Positions 1,596 to 20,649 of a stretch of DNA of 29,643 nt are shown here, piece by piece (positions within the stretch are counted from its first letter, which is position 1; every line of letters starts with the position of its first letter). The position numbers and the translations under genes were made by a program. The notes beneath the pieces were generated by a model. That model saw only the letters and a list, made by a program, of their open reading frames with translations. It ran no database searches and was not told the DNA's origin. This DNA comes from a virus, in IMG/VR virus record IMGVR_UViG_3300046454_000230, positions 1 through 29,643 of that record. The stretch is one strand, 5' to 3'.

Positions 1596-1684
1596 TTCTC
1601 AAAAAGCGCTGGAAAGATCGGCCGGGGCGTCTTCGTTTCCGTTGCTTGCAGGAATGAAGATACCAGAATGGCATAGACAGTCAA
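1541..1684 (-). CDS. Possible small protein at the head of the leftward operon
   Basis: A 47-codon frame with a TTG start, with protein-like content (TPRPIFPALFEKWLKQSK). The TTG coincides with the -35 hexamer of the leftward promoter, so translation from it is unlikely if that promoter is right. The only in-frame alternative near the predicted transcript start is a CTG at 1651. It overlaps the GTG frame at 1458-1595. It is listed because its composition looks coding; the start is unresolved. Confidence 0.28.
   Translation of the reverse strand: MTVYAILVSSFLQATETKTPRPIFPALFEKWLKQSKPQRENGHVNRS
1657..1684 (-). promoter_or_regulatory. Leftward early promoter (PL-like)
   Basis: Reading leftward there is TTGACT (1684-1679), a 16-base spacer and TATCTT (1662-1657). 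The operator 1661-1673 lies between and over the -10, and operator 1685-1697 abuts the -35. It should drive the left-arm genes and be shut off by the repressor. It overlaps the rightward promoter by one base in the -35 region. Confidence 0.6.
1661..1673. promoter_or_regulatory. Operator 1, module A
   Basis: TACCAGAATGGCA is an imperfect palindrome with half-sites TRCCA/TGGYA and a 3-base centre. Four more copies lie at 1685-1697, 2833-2845, 2857-2869 and 2891-2903. It covers the -10 of the leftward promoter. Confidence 0.6.
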
Positions 1685-1701
1685 TACCGGATTGGTATAA
1701 A
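1674..1701 (+). promoter_or_regulatory. Rightward promoter of the winged-helix gene
   Basis: TAGACA (1674-1679), 16-base spacer, TATAAA (1696-1701). The operator 1685-1697 fills the spacer and overlaps the -10. The predicted transcript start (about 1708) is next to the ATG at 1710, so the mRNA may be leaderless or nearly so. Confidence 0.6.
1685..1697. promoter_or_regulatory. Operator 2, module A
   Basis: TACCGGATTGGTA is palindromic at all but the centre. It is placed 24 bp from operator 1, the same spacing as between the two operators of module B. Confidence 0.6.
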
Positions 1702-1709
1702 TGTGAGGG

Positions 1710-2057
1710 ATGAGCAAAACACCAGAAACGCAGACCGACAGAATCAGACGATTAAAACGAAAATATCCGGCAGTCCCGGTAGCGCCGTTCCTGCGGATGC
1801 AGCGGAGATGGATACGCCGCGTGAACCAGATGACGAAGCTGACGCACGTCCAGCGATGCGCCGCAGTTTTTATCGGAGCGTTCTCGACGCCCGATACTCC
1901 GTTCTGCGCGGCTGGGATGGATTACATCTGCCGTCACGTCAGATGCGAGAGAACGGCCGTGCACCTTGCTGTCAAACAACTGGAGGCGGACGGATATATG
2001 CTTGTCGACAGGCAAAAAAGAGCCGGAAATGTCTATCGAATTAATGTGCCAATTTGA
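1710..2057 (+). CDS. Winged-helix (HTH_36-like) protein, possible replication or regulatory protein
   Basis: A 115-residue basic protein. The C-terminal half (about residues 68-113) has the pattern of a winged helix-turn-helix as found in phage replication initiators and plasmid Rep-type proteins: YICRHVRCERTAVHLAVKQL, then EADGYMLVDR and a wing ending GNVYRI. The N-terminal 40 residues are Arg-rich. It is alone behind its own operator-controlled promoter and is followed by a non-coding stretch with hairpins and direct repeats that could be its target. The ATG lies only 8 bases after the -10 hexamer, with GAGGG directly against it, so it may be read from a leaderless mRNA. A role as a transcription factor is equally possible. 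Confidence 0.65.
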   Translation: MSKTPETQTDRIRRLKRKYPAVPVAPFLRMQRRWIRRVNQMTKLTHVQRCAAVFIGAFSTPDTPFCAAGMDYICRHVRCERTAVHLAVKQLEADGYMLVDRQKRAGNVYRINVPI

Positions 2058-2063
2058 TAATTA

Positions 2064-2150
2064 TGGTTGTTCCTGGCCAACCACTTACGTGTTGTTCCCC
2101 ACCAACACAATATAGACGGGGGCTGATATAGACGGGGGGTTAATTTTTTT
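2064..2150. repeat. Tandem hairpins, direct repeats and AT tract: candidate origin or control site
   Basis: Two short stem-loops of like design follow one another: TGGTTG/CAACCA (2064-2069 with 2078-2083) and GTGTTG/CAACAC (2089-2094 with 2103-2108). Both contain GTTGTTCC, and they lie 25 bp apart. Then comes ATATAGACGGGGG twice (2110-2122 and 2126-2138, period 16), then TTAATTTTTTTAG (2140-2152). Paired repeats beside an AT-rich tract and downstream of a winged-helix gene resemble an iteron-type origin. A transcription terminator for the 1710 gene is an alternative reading of the hairpins. From here to 2318 I see no further gene; AGGAGG at 2162-2167 has no start codon near it. Confidence 0.4.
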
Positions 2151-2318
2151 AGATTTGGCTTAGGAGGAAGGAGTTATAGGAAACAGGGACGAGACGAACC
2201 CTTAAAAAGTCTCAACCTTGTTCGTAAACTTGCCCGCAATTCGCAAAAATTACAGATTGCTAATTGATCCTTACCGTACGTAGGATGAACGATTACGCAT
2301 CAATGTGGGGAAGCGACG

Positions 2319-2555
2319 ATGGCTTTGATCGATAATATTTCCGAATCGGTGAGCGAAATGACGATCGAGGAGAAAATTGCGTTCAGCGTTATTCTCGGCT
2401 GCTTGAAGTGCGAGGACCATGCAAATTGCCTGACCGCCCGGCGTCTTTTCCAAGAGCCGCTCTCACAGTCGCGTCGCTCTCGCGATCCTGGCCGGCAAGC
2501 CGCTGAGCGTTGTCAGCGAGATCGGAAAATAGCAGTCTCCCTAATTCCTCGTTGA
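2319..2555 (+). CDS. Possible small protein overlapping the repressor 3' end
   Basis: A 78-residue frame whose first 45 residues are protein-like (MALIDNISESVSEMTIEEKI, then a Cys-containing stretch GCLKCEDHANCL), preceded by GGGGAAG about 5 bases before the ATG. The second half becomes Arg/Ser-rich and runs antisense to the end of the repressor gene (2389-2555), which is suspicious. Either this is a real convergent gene with a tail overlap or only a chance frame. No family is recognised. Confidence 0.4.
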   Translation: MALIDNISESVSEMTIEEKIAFSVILGCLKCEDHANCLTARRLFQEPLSQSRRSRDPGRQAAERCQRDRKIAVSLIPR

Positions 2556-2820
2556 TCTCAGCAAGCATGACACCCTGGTCAAGAGCTACCTTGATCGACC
2601 GTCTCAGAAGGGATTGCCAAGAGCCACCGCCTTCGGAGCCAAAAATCAAAAATTCCGGAGTCGTATGCAAGTGGGGAGCGAGCTTTGTCGCCCATTCCTT
2701 CGTGAGCTTCCGCTTGCTTTTCTCCAATCGCTGAACTTGGGGCTGAGAGATGCCAGCGCGATCCGCCAGTGCTTGCTGGCTCAATCCGAGGATGTCCCGT
2801 AAGTCCTTGATCATGTTCAT
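2389..2820 (-). CDS. cI-like phage repressor, XRE-type HTH
   Basis: A 143-residue protein with a classical XRE/lambda-repressor helix-turn-helix near the N-terminus (LGLSQQALADRAGISQPQVQ, about residues 12-31, then RLEKSKRKLTKEWATKL). A helical region that could dimerise follows (residues 70-120). There is no LexA/S24 autoprotease domain, so induction would not be by classical self-cleavage. It is divergent from the Cro-like gene with the paired operators between, which is the lambda-type arrangement. There are two possible starts. ATG 2820 lies 8 bases after the -10, which would be leaderless as lambda cI is from PRM. ATG 2814 has AGGAG six bases upstream. The last 20 residues are low-quality and overlap the frame at 2319-2555. 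Confidence 0.8.
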   Translation of the reverse strand: MNMIKDLRDILGLSQQALADRAGISQPQVQRLEKSKRKLTKEWATKLAPHLHTTPEFLIFGSEGGGSWQSLLRRSIKVALDQGVMLAEINEELGRLLFSDLADNAQRLAGQDRESDATVRAALGKDAGRSGNLHGPRTSSSRE

Positions 2821-2828
2821 CTCCTGAA

Positions 2829-2856
2829 CTTATTCCGAATTGGCATTTAGATCAAA
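2829..2856 (-). promoter_or_regulatory. Leftward repressor promoter
   Basis: In the same geometry as the promoter at 1657-1684, reading leftward: TTTGAT (2856-2851), 16 bases, AATAAG (2834-2829). Both hexamers are poor, as expected for a maintenance promoter. Operator 2833-2845 lies over its -10. Confidence 0.4.
2833..2845. promoter_or_regulatory. Operator 1, module B
   Basis: TTCCGAATTGGCA has the same 13-bp pattern as the other operators. It lies exactly 1172 bp from operator 1 of module A and 24 bp from its partner. Confidence 0.55.
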
Positions 2857-2873
2857 AGCCAAACTGGTATATT
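2846..2873 (+). promoter_or_regulatory. Rightward early promoter (PR-like)
   Basis: TTTAGA (2846-2851), 16-base spacer, TATATT (2868-2873). The -10 overlaps the end of operator 2857-2869 exactly as in the module at 1674-1701. It should drive the Cro-like gene and the long right-arm operon. Confidence 0.5.
2857..2869. promoter_or_regulatory. Operator 2, module B
   Basis: AGCCAAACTGGTA matches the operator pattern and overlaps the -10 of the rightward promoter. Confidence 0.55.
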
Positions 2874-2890
2874 TTTTTCTTGCAAGTCGA

Positions 2891-2903
2891 TGCCAAAATG
2901 GTA
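2891..2903. promoter_or_regulatory. Operator 3, in the start region of the Cro-like gene
   Basis: TGCCAAAATGGTA is a further copy of the operator pattern, 34 bp from operator 2 of module B and overlapping the candidate ATG at 2898. A lone half-site TTGGCA follows at 2908-2913. It may mediate autoregulation. Confidence 0.5.
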
Positions 2904-3128
2904 TGGTTTGGCATGACCCTAGAAGAATATCTCCACGACACGAAGCCGAAGAAACTTTCGCACGCTGCGTTTGGCGAGAAGGTTGGCGTCACGCAAGCGA
3001 CGATCAACCGGTATGTGCGAGGGGATAGGTTTCCTTCTCCGGACATGATCCGGAAGATCCAAGACGTCACCGGCGGCGCGGTCACAGTCAACGACTGGTA
3101 CGCGAAATCGGCGGTGGCCGCGCAATGA
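2898..3128 (+). CDS. Cro-like HTH protein
   Basis: About 76 residues from ATG 2898; 71 from ATG 2913; a TTG at 2880 is also in frame. The core is a YdaS/Cro-type helix-turn-helix: SHAAFGEKVGVTQATINRYV followed by RGDRFPSPDMIRKIQDVTGG, then a short tail (VTVNDWYA) as in phage antirepressors of this type. It is divergent from the cI-like gene and lies first in the right operon, so it most likely acts as Cro, binding the shared operators. None of the possible starts has a good Shine-Dalgarno. TTG 2880 is 6 bases from the -10, so the mRNA may carry little or no leader. The stop overlaps the next ATG (ATGA). Confidence 0.75.
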   Translation: MVWFGMTLEEYLHDTKPKKLSHAAFGEKVGVTQATINRYVRGDRFPSPDMIRKIQDVTGGAVTVNDWYAKSAVAAQ

Positions 3129-6375: not shown

Positions 6376-6740
6376 CCGAAACCATTTCAGCAGCTCAATA
6401 CCGACAGACAAATCCGAAGAAGAGCAAGTACGGAAATCAGCGCACCATGCTCGACGGTATCGCTTTCGATTCAAAAGCCGAGGCGAAATATTACTCCAAT
6501 TTGAAGATCCGCGAAAGGGCAGGGGAAGTCGGCGGGGTTGAGCTGCAACGCTCCTTCGCCATCCTTGGACCGAAAGGCGAACTGGTCTGCACTTACCGCT
6601 CGGACTTCTGCTTCATCGACCACAGCCAGGATGGGCGCTTCCGCTGCGTCGATGTCAAAGGCTTCGAGACCCCCGAATTCAAACTCAAGCGCAAGCTTAT
6701 GAAGGCATTCCTTCAGATCGACGTGGAGACTGTCGCGTGA
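6372..6740 (+). CDS. DUF1064 family nuclease (PD-(D/E)XK fold)
   Basis: A 122-residue protein with the DUF1064 pattern: KYGNQRTMLDGIAFDSKAEA, YRSDFCF and CVDVKGFETPEFKLKRKL. Candidate catalytic residues are Glu37, Asp78 and Asp94-x-Lys96, as in PD-(D/E)XK enzymes. The family is typical of phage early regions and is often placed with Holliday-junction or branched-DNA nucleases, so it probably acts in replication-recombination. GTG start overlapping the previous TGA. Length is normal for the family. Confidence 0.8.
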   Translation: MTETISAAQYRQTNPKKSKYGNQRTMLDGIAFDSKAEAKYYSNLKIRERAGEVGGVELQRSFAILGPKGELVCTYRSDFCFIDHSQDGRFRCVDVKGFETPEFKLKRKLMKAFLQIDVETVA

Positions 6741-7150
6741 AAACCTTCACCTCAAAAGCAGACGAGACACCCGAATTCGTAGCCTTCTGGTCCGCGTGGC
6801 GGATTCACGCCCGCCATACCGATGGAAGAGGCGATGCCAGGGATGCATTTTTCAAGCACGTCAGGATGGGTGCTGATCCTCAAGACCTCGTGGACGGCGC
6901 AGCCTACTTCCTGCGCACCATGAAGGACAAGGACCGCGAATATATCCCTCTCGCCGCCTCGTGGCTTGGGAAGCGCGCCTATGAAGACATGGCCGAAGCA
7001 GAGCGCGCCCTCCAGCAGAAGCTCCGTGAACGCGTCATAGCCCAGCCGAACATCGTCACCCTTCAGCAGCCCAAGGAAAGCCCGGAGCGCCGTGCGGAGA
7101 TGGCCGCGAGGCTTCGCCAAGTGGCCAACGGTATGAGGTCGGGATCATGA
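6737..7150 (+). CDS. Replication-protein-like (replisome organiser C-terminal type) protein
   Basis: A 137-residue protein from a GTG start. The pattern FVAFWSAWRIHARHTDGRGD, an AFFKH helix, and YIPLAASWLGKRAYED is that of the C-terminal domain found in many phage replication initiators and DnaT-like helicase-loading proteins (FW..Y..., then IP...WL). The usual N-terminal winged helix is absent, so this could be a stand-alone loader or a remnant. The last 35 residues are basic and helical. Coupled by GTGA and ATGA to its neighbours. The identification is by pattern only. Confidence 0.55.
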   Translation: MKTFTSKADETPEFVAFWSAWRIHARHTDGRGDARDAFFKHVRMGADPQDLVDGAAYFLRTMKDKDREYIPLAASWLGKRAYEDMAEAERALQQKLRERVIAQPNIVTLQQPKESPERRAEMAARLRQVANGMRSGS

Positions 7151-8414: not shown

Positions 8415-8837
8415 ATGAACGCAATGTTGCAGCTTTCAGAACTTCATCGCCTGAACCAGGAACACAAGCTTCGCCAGCAGAAGCTGTGGAACCTCCCAGA
8501 ACCCGCGCCGATCGTCATCAAGGGGAAAGTCGCCAAGCGGCCAAGCATAGTTTTACCGGAAGCCGGAGAGCTTGAGAACATGCTTCGTCATCACACGATT
8601 GGCGAGCTTTCGAAGATCCTCGGATTTAGCCGGCGGGCAATCACAACGAGGCTGCGGCGGGCTGGGCTCGGAGTTGGTCTTCTTCCGAAGCGCGAACCGG
8701 TTCTTCATGTGCGTCCGCCGCAGGAATATTCGGCAGAGCCACGCCAGCTTCCCCCAGACAGGGTTATCCGCATCACGTCGATCGGAGCGCGAGTGACGAT
8801 GCCGCGTTTGAATTTTCTTGATGGAAAGGGCGACTGA
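8415..8837 (+). CDS. HTH protein
   Basis: A 140-residue basic protein. Residues about 55-82 form a helix-turn-helix (HHTIGELSKILGFSRRAITT, RLRRAGL). The N-terminal 30 residues are a Gln-rich helix and the C-terminus is irregular and basic. This resembles small phage regulators that use a sigma-like or GcrA-like HTH. Lies immediately before the NusG-like gene. Confidence 0.6.
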   Translation: MNAMLQLSELHRLNQEHKLRQQKLWNLPEPAPIVIKGKVAKRPSIVLPEAGELENMLRHHTIGELSKILGFSRRAITTRLRRAGLGVGLLPKREPVLHVRPPQEYSAEPRQLPPDRVIRITSIGARVTMPRLNFLDGKGD

Positions 8838-8838
8838 C

Positions 8839-9438
8839 ATGGATCAATATTATTTTGCTCTTCGTCTAAAGCCAGGATCCGGAAAGCCTCATCGCTTTCG
8901 CGGGGGAATGAACGTCGAATTTGCGCTCCACCAGGCAGGCGTGGAATATTATTTCCCCGTCGAGATGGTCAGCAAGATCCATCACAGGACCGGGAAGCTT
9001 ATCGACAAGCGCTTTCCTCTCATCCCAGGATATGCTTTCATCCCCGAAAGGAACGACTACGACTGGAAGGCGCTCAGCAAAATCGATTACATTGCCTGCG
9101 CCGTTCGCAGCAAAGACGGGCCGCTTCGCATTAGAGGCAGCGATATAGATCGCATCAGGGCAGCCGAAGACGCGCTCATGGTAAAATACCACTACGACAA
9201 GGCAGTTGCTCGCCAGCGCGCAGAAGCCGCTCTCCACAGGCTCACCTCACGAGAAGCGCGCCTTAGGTTCCCCGAGGGTAGCCGCATCAAGGTTCTCGAC
9301 AGCCACGCCATGTTCGGCGGCAAGGAAGCTCGGGTATTGGCAGCGACGGGCAGGGGGACGATTACCGCCATGATTGAAATGCTGTCAGGCGCGGTTAAGA
9401 TAGAGCTTGGGGTAGATTATCTGGAGGATGCCGCGTGA
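8839..9438 (+). CDS. Phage NusG/RfaH-like transcription elongation factor
   Basis: A 199-residue protein with NusG design. The N-terminal NGN domain (about residues 2-95) shows YYFALRLKPG, an ALHQAGVEYYFPVE segment and the typical KRFPLIPGYAFI. The C-terminal KOW region (about 148-192) shows PEGSRIKVLDSHAMFGGKEA and a closing VKIELGVDYLEDAA. NusG binds RNA polymerase and, in specialised paralogues such as RfaH, lets it pass terminators or load on one operon. In a phage, a role in antitermination of late or early genes is plausible. Start at ATG 8839 with AAGGG 8 bases upstream. The last residues are repeated in the short frame at 9630-9686. Confidence 0.8.
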   Translation: MDQYYFALRLKPGSGKPHRFRGGMNVEFALHQAGVEYYFPVEMVSKIHHRTGKLIDKRFPLIPGYAFIPERNDYDWKALSKIDYIACAVRSKDGPLRIRGSDIDRIRAAEDALMVKYHYDKAVARQRAEAALHRLTSREARLRFPEGSRIKVLDSHAMFGGKEARVLAATGRGTITAMIEMLSGAVKIELGVDYLEDAA

Positions 9439-10796: not shown

Positions 10797-11016
10797 CACC
10801 GGCTCCAACTACGTTGCCGTGACGCCAAACGACACGACAATCGTCGGCGCGCTTGCTCTGTTCGTCGGGACAGGTGGAAACGTCTCTGTCAAGGCGAATG
10901 CATCAGCAGCGGCTGTTGTATTCAAGAACGTCCCGAGCGGCGCGACACTTCCAATCAGCGCGGCCATCATCATGGCGACGGGAACGACGGCGACTGATAT
11001 CGTCGGGATCTTCTAG
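10780..11016 (+). CDS. Spike-base-like protein (RCAP_rcc01079 family)
   Basis: A 78-residue protein that fits the small spike-base family named after the Rhodobacter gene transfer agent: VTPNDTTIVGALALFVGTGG, a VVFKNVPSGATLPISA strand pair, and the closing MATGTTATDIVGIF. In the gene transfer agent this protein sits at the base of head spikes. A head-spike role would fit a phage with fibres. Length is typical. It lies far from the capsid genes, just before the packaging block. Confidence 0.65.
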   Translation: MATTNNTGSNYVAVTPNDTTIVGALALFVGTGGNVSVKANASAAAVVFKNVPSGATLPISAAIIMATGTTATDIVGIF

Positions 11017-11276
11017 GAAAGCCCGGCGGACTTGCGCAATACAGCGTTCATTCGGCTCTGCCAGCCAGGCCCAGCCGCTTTGAACCATTCGATGACGTCT
11101 GGATCAACCCGAAGTGTTAGCAGCTTCTTTGCATCAGGATCAGTCTTTCGGCCACGCCTAGCACTCAGCGCCTTCTCATAGATATCAACATTGGCTCGCT
11201 CCGCAAACGCGCGTTCCTGGTCTCTGCGGATTTTATCGAGATGATCATCATGCCGCGCTTGGTAAATAATAGCCAT
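11013..11276 (-). CDS. BrnA-like antitoxin, orphan
   Basis: An 87-residue protein with the BrnA pattern: a charged N-terminus (ARHDDHLDKIRRDQERAFAE) and the ribbon-helix-helix-like end LLTLRVDPDVIEWFKAAGPG, WQSRMNAVLRK. BrnA normally neutralises BrnT and represses their operon; no BrnT gene is on either side. GGAG stands before the ATG at 11276. Transcribed against all its neighbours from the gap before the terminase genes, where an 11-bp direct repeat could be its operator. An immunity or anti-toxin role for the phage is inferred. Confidence 0.7.
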   Translation of the reverse strand: MAIIYQARHDDHLDKIRRDQERAFAERANVDIYEKALSARRGRKTDPDAKKLLTLRVDPDVIEWFKAAGPGWQSRMNAVLRKSAGLS

Positions 11277-19189: not shown

Positions 19190-20649
19190 TGACCACCTTC
19201 AATCTTGCCGAGTTCGGCCCTGACAGTGCGGACCTGAACAGCAACTTCACCGATGCGCTGAACAACGTATTGTGCGGTAGCGGCTTTTATCTGCCGGCTC
19301 CGCAGATCCAGGCATTGACCGCAGCACTGCCGACACAACCGACTGGCTGGCTGTCGGTTCGCTCGCTTGATGGGTCGATACGCTTCTTCGCCGGGACGTT
19401 CACCAAACTGTTCCTGCTCAACAATACGACGCTGGCATGGGATGACGTGTCGAAGACGGCAACGACATACAGTTCAACGCAGGATATCTCCTGGTCAATG
19501 ACGGCGTTCGGCAATTATGTCATTGCCGTCAACCAGAACGATAACCCGCAGGTCTACCAGATCGGCACCGACGTAAAATTCCGCGATCTGGGTGGCTCTC
19601 CTCCAAGAGCCGGCATTGTCAGGCAATGGGGTGATTTCGTCGCTCTGATGCGGCTGACCGGCAATCCGAACCGGGCGCAGTGGTCGGGTCTGAACAACGC
19701 GGAATTCTGGACACCGGGCTCGCAGAACAGCGATTTCCAGGACTTTCCAGACGGGGGTGTCGTTCAAGGCTCGACCGAGATGACCAATCCGATCATCTTC
19801 CTCGAAAGTGCCATTCAGTTGGGCACGTTCGTTCCGGGATCGGCTGAAGTCTTCACGTTTCGCAAGATCCAGGAGAAGCGCGGGGCAAAATCGCCAAAAT
19901 CGATCGCAACGCGCGGTAATCTTGGGTTTTTTGCCGATACGGGCGGGTTTTTCCAGATCGATTCCACCGGTCAAGTCACGCCAATCGGCTTTGAGCGCGT
20001 TGACCGGACGATTTTCACGCCGATGACGGCCTATTCTCAGTCAAGAATTATGGGCGCGATCGATCCATTCTATTCCCGCGTTTATTGGGCGCTCGATTAC
20101 GATGGCAACGGCGTTTATGACAAGATGCTGGTCTTTGACTGGCAGCTGTCGAAGTGGACGCAGATCGACATTGCCTGCTACGGGATATTCCCGTTCGCTA
20201 CCTCGGGATATACTCTCGACGGTCTCGACGCGGTCAGTTCCAGCCTCGACGCATTACCGTTCTCGCTGGATTCAGCGGTCTGGGATGGCGGCGCTCCGGT
20301 TCTTGGTGCGTTCATGTCCAACCTGAAGCTTGGGGCATTCTCCGGGACTCCTGCCGAGGCGACAGTGACCACGCAGGAAGTCGGCGACGTTACCGGCCAG
20401 ATGGCGCGCACGTCGAGCACCTATCCGCTCGTCAATACCAATCAGCTGTTCGTCTCCATCGGCATCAGGAACCGCCGTAGCGACAACGTCACGTGGCTTC
20501 CAGAACAGGCTCCTTCGTCCAATACCGGCCGTGTGAGAAAGCGTTCCAGAGCACGTTTTCACCGCATGAAGATCCGCATCATTGCCGGGGCAGTCTGGAG
20601 CTTCCTGAAGGGCATCGATGTCGACACATCCTCAGCAGGTGAACGATGA
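19189..20649 (+). CDS. Tail nozzle / packaged-DNA stabilising protein (P22 gp10-like)
   Basis: A 486-residue beta-rich protein, probably a beta-propeller like P22 gp10. Repeated strand blocks (WLSVRSLDGSIRFFAGT, TKLFLLNNTTLAWDDVS, YVIAVNQNDNPQVYQ) and a central IQEKRGAKSPKSIATRGNLG segment that I associate with this group. It would form the hexameric nozzle below the adaptor. The length matches gp10 (about 470). Overlaps both neighbours by one to four bases. Confidence 0.75.
   Translation: MTTFNLAEFGPDSADLNSNFTDALNNVLCGSGFYLPAPQIQALTAALPTQPTGWLSVRSLDGSIRFFAGTFTKLFLLNNTTLAWDDVSKTATTYSSTQDISWSMTAFGNYVIAVNQNDNPQVYQIGTDVKFRDLGGSPPRAGIVRQWGDFVALMRLTGNPNRAQWSGLNNAEFWTPGSQNSDFQDFPDGGVVQGSTEMTNPIIFLESAIQLGTFVPGSAEVFTFRKIQEKRGAKSPKSIATRGNLGFFADTGGFFQIDSTGQVTPIGFERVDRTIFTPMTAYSQSRIMGAIDPFYSRVYWALDYDGNGVYDKMLVFDWQLSKWTQIDIACYGIFPFATSGYTLDGLDAVSSSLDALPFSLDSAVWDGGAPVLGAFMSNLKLGAFSGTPAEATVTTQEVGDVTGQMARTSSTYPLVNTNQLFVSIGIRNRRSDNVTWLPEQAPSSNTGRVRKRSRARFHRMKIRIIAGAVWSFLKGIDVDTSSAGER

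Follow-up and report, generated by a model that had tools for sequence, protein, structure and literature searches.

The stretch of DNA analyzed here, hereafter the window, is the whole of IMG/VR virus record IMGVR_UViG_3300046454_000230, which is 29,643 bases long and, because it carries terminase, portal, capsid, ejection, and lysis genes, is assigned to a podophage-like virus. At its immunity region, a gene for a winged-helix protein converges on a C/CI-like repressor gene, which in turn diverges from a gene for a Cro-like protein. Five operators of 13 base pairs (bp) accompany these genes, two of them in a left cluster (OL) at a predicted leftward promoter (PL) and three in a right cluster (OR) between the repressor and cro genes (Table 1). 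We conclude that the window belongs to a temperate, podophage-like virus of Rhizobiales with a lambda-type bipartite immunity region. To the reading of these features as an OL-repressor-OR-cro switch that would work as lambda's does, we give a probability of about 0.9 on the basis of sequence comparison.

Table 1. Coordinates of the features of the immunity region and of related elements
Feature	Position	Strand	Details
PL-leader RNA hairpin	1602..1649	-	core CGAAGACGC-CCCG-GCCGATC with covarying outer stem; predicted 5' end of PL transcript
PL, predicted leftward promoter	1657..1684	-	TTGACT-16-TATCTT; transcript start inferred
OL left operator	1661..1673		TACCAGAATGGCA; overlaps PL -10
Predicted winged-helix gene promoter	1674..1701	+	TAGACA-16-TATAAA; 8 nucleotides from -10 end to ATG at 1710
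OL right operator	1685..1697		TACCGGATTGGTA; adjoins PL -35 (GGTATTGAC, leftward); overlaps winged-helix promoter -10
Winged-helix protein gene	1710..2057	+	115 amino acids; like N-terminal domain of O-like replication initiators; model confidence (pLDDT) 85
Two repeats, putative iterons	2066..2106		GTTGTTCCTGGCCAAC at 2066-2081 and GTTGTTCCCCACCAAC at 2091-2106, 25 bp apart
Direct repeat	2110-2122 and 2126-2138		ATATAGACGGGGG
Repressor (C/CI-like) gene	2389..2820	-	HTH_3 N-terminal domain; lacks S24 C-terminal domain of most relatives
Predicted repressor promoter	2827..2855	-	TTGATC-17-TAAGTT; 6 nucleotides from -10 end to ATG at 2820 (leaderless)
OR operator O3	2833..2845		TTCCGAATTGGCA; between repressor promoter -35 and -10; placement differs among phages
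OR operator O2	2857..2869		AGCCAAACTGGTA; adjoins repressor promoter -35
Predicted cro promoter	2880..2907	+	TTGCAA-16-TATGGT; 5 nucleotides from -10 end to ATG at 2913 (leaderless cro)
OR operator O1	2891..2903		TGCCAAAATGGTA; over cro promoter spacer and -10; O2 34 bp away
Cro-like protein gene	2913..3128	+	71 amino acids; N-terminus MTLEEYL
Possible C-terminal half of split replication initiator	6737..7150	+	phrog_270 positions 172-304; rightward operon
Hairpin copies in other records	L001 11988-12036; L036 2512-2559; L102 6790-6837; L177-L204

Operators and promoters of the two clusters

The original prediction had described five palindromes of a single form, four of them arranged as two equally spaced pairs. 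All five are found where it placed them, and its distances (24 bp, 24 bp, and 1172 bp, measured start to start) are all exact, but the form TRCCRNNNTGGYA is fitted exactly only at 1661, 1685, and 2891, with one mismatch each at 2833 and 2857. Counting both strands, we found 6 exact matches to this pattern in the window against 0.21 expected, and none of 100 shuffles gave as many; the 13-mer is thus above chance frequency, as had been anticipated. A genome search at two mismatches, also proposed at that stage, returned 171 matches against 109 expected, and at this setting the pattern is too loose to use. One stray exact match, at 19555-19567, lies within a virion structural gene and is probably due to chance, and a one-mismatch site at 2047 falls where the winged-helix gene ends.

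Relatives of the region were gathered by a distant DNA search, a repressor-based search, and two protein-blind pattern scans, and from the scans only matches with a repressor homologue were taken further. A profile search of genome contigs with the Cro alignment gave no match. The protein-blind scans reached repressor homologues in prophages of Rhizobium lusitanum, R. rhizogenes, Rhizobium sp. P40RR-XXII, and Pseudochrobactrum saccharolyticum, and the scans and the repressor-based search converge on one layout, which recurs in about 20 dereplicated phages and prophages. Using an operator weight matrix trained solely on the window's five sites, we ranked all positions in 18 other loci of 6 to 23 kb, including Rhizobium phage RHph_Y25 and Microcystis phage Mae-JY35. 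O1 was among the top 4 positions in every one of the 18 loci, both OL sites were in the top 5 in all 17 loci holding OL, and O2 was in the top 5 in 15 of 18. From these sequence comparisons, we take the five operators to be real. That they are instead chance palindromes in a phage fragment has practically no probability: the exact stray at 19555 is of the kind that such an explanation expects, but no shuffle scored as high, about 20 divergent phages have the sites in corresponding positions, and the matrix ranking refutes it.

The distant DNA search led to RHph_Y25, in which the winged-helix, repressor C, and Cro genes follow one another as in the window and five sites correspond to the window's, with spacings of 24, 24, and 35 bp and 1196 bp between the pairs. 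Phage L002, which is without the winged-helix gene, has spacings of 25, 24, and 33 bp and 753 bp between the pairs. The 1172 bp of the window is therefore accidental. A separate observation concerns L150, a record titled Bacillus subtilis SK6B4, whose prophage region closely resembles one in Pseudochrobactrum; mislabelling or contamination of this record is the probable cause.

We then read the anatomy of operators and promoters over 21 dereplicated phages. The prediction that the left pair lies over PL, for the left arm, and over the winged-helix promoter was borne out, as was the assignment of the right cluster to the repressor and cro, and about 20 dereplicated phages have this layout. Back-to-back promoters are likewise present: the -35 hexamers of PL and the winged-helix promoter have a single base in common, 1679, and a rightward TTTAGA-16-TATATT is present at 2846-2873. 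Every phage that has an OL has its two sites 24 or 25 bp apart. The right OL site leads directly into the PL -35 (GGTATTGAC), with TTG in 20 of 20 dereplicated phages and C in 19, and the winged-helix ATG lies 5 to 10 nucleotides downstream of the rightward -10 of OL in 10 phages. At OR, O1 and O2 are 32 to 35 bp apart in 21 dereplicated phages, and O1 ends within the -10 of the cro promoter, whose -35, TTGCAA, lies at 2880-2885 in the window; the cro ATG follows this -10 by 5 to 7 nucleotides in 20 of the 21.

Because this conserved promoter has its -10 where the 2891 operator ends and its -35 at 2880-2885, the originally predicted cro start at 2880 is unlikely, and cro most likely starts from the promoter over the 2891 operator, giving a leaderless mRNA at about 2913. 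A start at about 2880, from a rightward promoter over 2857 and with a leader of about 33 nucleotides, could draw on TTTAGA-16-TATATT (2846-2873), which scores 9 of 12. We consider it improbable, however, in that its -35 is not conserved in other phages, a CTTG-type -35 and a -10 TAT over O1 are conserved instead at a near-fixed distance to the cro ATG, and no clear Shine-Dalgarno sequence is seen in the putative leader. The -10-to-ATG distances lead us to predict leaderless mRNAs, with starts 5 to 8 nucleotides past the -10, for the repressor, Cro, and the winged-helix protein. Leaderless mRNAs account for 171 mapped starts in Sinorhizobium meliloti (PMC3616915), and the cI and cro mRNAs of phage PY54 are leaderless (PMC4488713).

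By sequence comparison, the conserved parts of the switch are the 24-bp OL pair and the 32- to 35-bp OR pair (2857/2891), and the third OR site varies. When the position of O3 and the OR pair were surveyed in 23 phages, the third site was 24 bp from O2 in 6, including the window, was 37 bp from O2 and over the repressor ATG in 7, and was absent or weak in 10. The repressor N-terminal domains gave a tree with 3 of 20 branches starred, a resolution too poor to order the appearance of the O3 positions. This variation bears on the suggestion of the original prediction that the 24-bp OR pair and the OL pair are cloned modules from one duplicated ancestral divergent switch. Within the window, the modules do have the same operators, the 24-bp spacing, and superposable promoter geometry. 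Outside the operators, however, OL and OR are no more alike within the window (31% identity) than between genomes (mean, 38%), compared with 70% for OL-OL and 67% for OR-OR between genomes. Furthermore, only 6 of the 23 phages have the 24-bp OR pair at all, and between the two modules the conserved -35 positions are offset by one base. Duplication is thus not supported and is, in our judgment, very unlikely; the OL and OR modules are old and separate.

The putative origin and the PL leader

A possible origin between the modules had also been predicted, and the repeat pairs past the winged-helix gene and the protein's likeness to replication initiators support it. Eight of nine winged-helix homologues match O-like replication-initiation profiles, and the window's structural model gives weak fold matches (Foldseek) to plasmid initiators and MarR/CodY proteins. 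The initiator profile phrog_270 is matched in two halves by the window, by RHph_Y25, and by the L155 phage, the N-terminal half by the winged-helix gene and the C-terminal half in the right operon. In several phages, a repeat pair 23 to 25 bp apart follows the winged-helix stop codon; its sequence differs by winged-helix type, and a dyad is usual. In shuffle tests, P was 0.043 in the window and at most 0.003 in L001, L124, L036, L155, L166, and Mae-JY35; L144 did not pass. On this evidence, an origin inside the immunity region is likely, and the winged-helix gene next to it probably encodes one half of a split replication initiator. Phage N15, in which OL lies upstream of a replication gene, is a precedent.

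It is possible, though we doubt it, that the winged-helix protein is instead a transcription regulator or antirepressor, with the repeats as its own operators and no origin. The Foldseek matches include general winged helices (CodY, MarR) besides replication initiators, and the RHph_Y25 annotation reads transcriptional regulator. Against this stand the initiation profiles matched by nearly all homologues and the position of the repeats, which lie between the end of the gene and the 3' end of the repressor gene converging on it, a stretch with no evident promoter. In addition, the C-terminal half of the initiator profile that the winged-helix gene lacks is found in the right operon of three phages.

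The predicted PL transcript begins with a hairpin whose general core, CACGAAGAAGC-N(3-7)-GCCGATCTG, is present in many Rhizobiales prophages. Over ten sequences, both sides change in 6 of 10 pairs, and 90% of the cells pair, compared with at most 40% when slid; over 40 distinct sequences, in an alignment fitted to the structure, both sides change in seven pairs, and 91% of the cells pair. The idea that the core encodes a short peptide was rejected, since the loop length varies by non-multiples of three and the stems covary. A search of Rfam with the hairpin gave no match. Phages with a strong match have one strong copy each, below PL; no second strong copy turned up when 17 whole records were searched. 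Hairpin matches were found in 22 of 200 genomes of the family of R. lusitanum. By our count, at 18 of 28 Rhizobiaceae-family loci a TTGAC box lies 29 to 39 nucleotides before the start of the hairpin model, whereas only 7% of control windows have TTGAC anywhere in 100 nucleotides. Judged by eye, the operators at these loci differ, and the other palindromes seen there are a lead; a test for palindrome pairs upstream of the hairpin leaves the claim, for most of the 28 loci, at the TTGAC box.

The hairpin is perhaps an antitermination element or a stability element of the 5' end. As for nut-site antitermination, a conserved PL-leader hairpin is seen, and the right arm, searched for a second copy, gave none with a convincing score. 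A wider reading would join these strands: in a large group of Rhizobiales prophages, the first element of the left operon would be a structured RNA of a new class, which stays conserved as operators and repressors change and serves as a nut/put-like antitermination element, and OL would directly control half of a split replication initiator, with the origin inside the immunity region. Taken as a whole, we hold this to be speculative and rather unlikely.

Several other features were noted. A gene for a NusG-like transcription antiterminator (phrog_25909) is present in the right operon at 8818-9438, and its product could act on PL or late transcripts. The conserved hairpin is absent from L158, L163, L165, L167, and Rhizobium phage 16-3 (L171 5790-5830), which have another simple hairpin at the same place after PL, such as GCTCATCC...GGATGAGC. 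Another phage group, with a Cro starting MTLEDYIHE, has the same PL layout at L007 2150-2260; its operator is another one, TGTAGCAT/ATGCTACA, and it matches the hairpin weakly. Elsewhere in the window, a homologue of BrnA-type antitoxins is encoded beside the terminase genes (11013-11276, minus strand).

A lambda-like switch and its relatives

With operators in two clusters, one repressor/Cro pair appears placed to govern both arms, as had been proposed. The repressor gene lies between OL and OR, which have the 13-bp operator in common. In the lysogen, repressor on OL would shut PL, and so the left arm, together with the winged-helix promoter, and repressor on O1 and O2 would shut the cro promoter; O3, inside the repressor's own promoter, would provide autoregulation. 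During lytic growth, Cro would take the same sites and shut the repressor promoter, and helix 3 of the two proteins is alike (pattern SQ/TQ..I/V.R). The winged-helix protein would probably bind the repeat pair past its gene, and the repressor may silence the origin via OL.

In lambda, the repressor gene is flanked by OL and OR, the operator is shared, the cI and cro promoters diverge, operators are spaced by about 24 bp, and the PRM mRNA is leaderless. The window is alike in all of these, its leaderless repressor mRNA being predicted; its repressor and cro genes diverge with operators between them, and a second cluster of the same operator lies at the promoter of the other arm. It differs in having a 13-bp operator of another sequence, two OL sites, a conserved OR pair at 32 to 35 bp, a winged-helix gene and putative origin between OL and the repressor, and a repressor without a C-terminal domain. 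At 143 amino acids, this repressor keeps only the helix-turn-helix domain of its relatives (other members have versions of 99 amino acids), and its alignment with that of RHph_Y25 is limited to the first 62 residues. The two-domain form with an S24 C-terminal domain is found in most relatives, and because the window's repressor lacks that domain, we file the region as a variant working like lambda's and not as a lambda member.

Several points weigh against the lambda-type reading. Two of the five operator sites are imperfect, the O1-O2 spacing of 34 bp is unlike that of lambda, and the domain absent from the repressor is the one that in lambda CI serves cooperativity and RecA-dependent cleavage. 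The window is also a fragment in which the integrase and most of the left arm are not seen. The sequence itself shows the operators, their spacings, the conserved letters of the promoters, the covariation of the hairpin, and the repeat pairs; binding, occupancy order, transcript starts, the origin, and the function of the hairpin are all inferred.

RHph_Y25 and Mae-JY35 share the window's operators, spacings, gene order, and winged-helix gene, and RHph_Y25 also has the PL hairpin; unlike the window's, their repressors retain the S24 domain. In both records the genes are named and the operators are unannotated. The nearest studied relative of the switch is immC of phage 16-3. Its C repressor is homologous to the RHph_Y25 repressor over nearly the full length (36% identity, 96% of the query); a search with the window's repressor did not find the C repressor itself. 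In 16-3, c lies between the annotated OR1-OR2 and OL1-OL2, with PR, Pc, and PL in the same order as in the window. As in the window's repressor promoter, the -10 of Pc ends 6 nucleotides before the c start, and the PL leader likewise begins with a hairpin. The operators, however, are ACAA/TTGT in 16-3 and TRCC/GGYA (TACC/GGTA) in the window, and no window-type TRCC/GGYA site is present at OL or OR of 16-3. Furthermore, OL directly follows c with no gene between, and the 16-3 record has no Cro of the window's family and no winged-helix gene at that place. The immB regions of the telomere phages N15, phiKO2, and PY54 are also among the closest known systems, the leaderless cI and cro of PY54 being a shared trait with the predicted mRNAs of the window; they differ from the window in their enterobacterial hosts and linear plasmid prophages.

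Taken together, these results describe a known kind of switch with its own operator, conserved OR pair, winged-helix/origin cassette, and PL hairpin. New here are the covarying PL hairpin, which is not in Rfam, and the winged-helix gene followed by repeat pairs. The comparison indicates which parts of the lambda design are kept (the OL pair, the OR pair, and PL) and which drift (the third OR site and the repressor C-terminal domain), and it points to a structured RNA heading the left operon that has no entry in the RNA-family library that was searched. Rhizobiales phages thereby gain a well-defined lambda-like switch, whose predicted operators, promoters, and leaderless starts would be testable in the isolated phage RHph_Y25.
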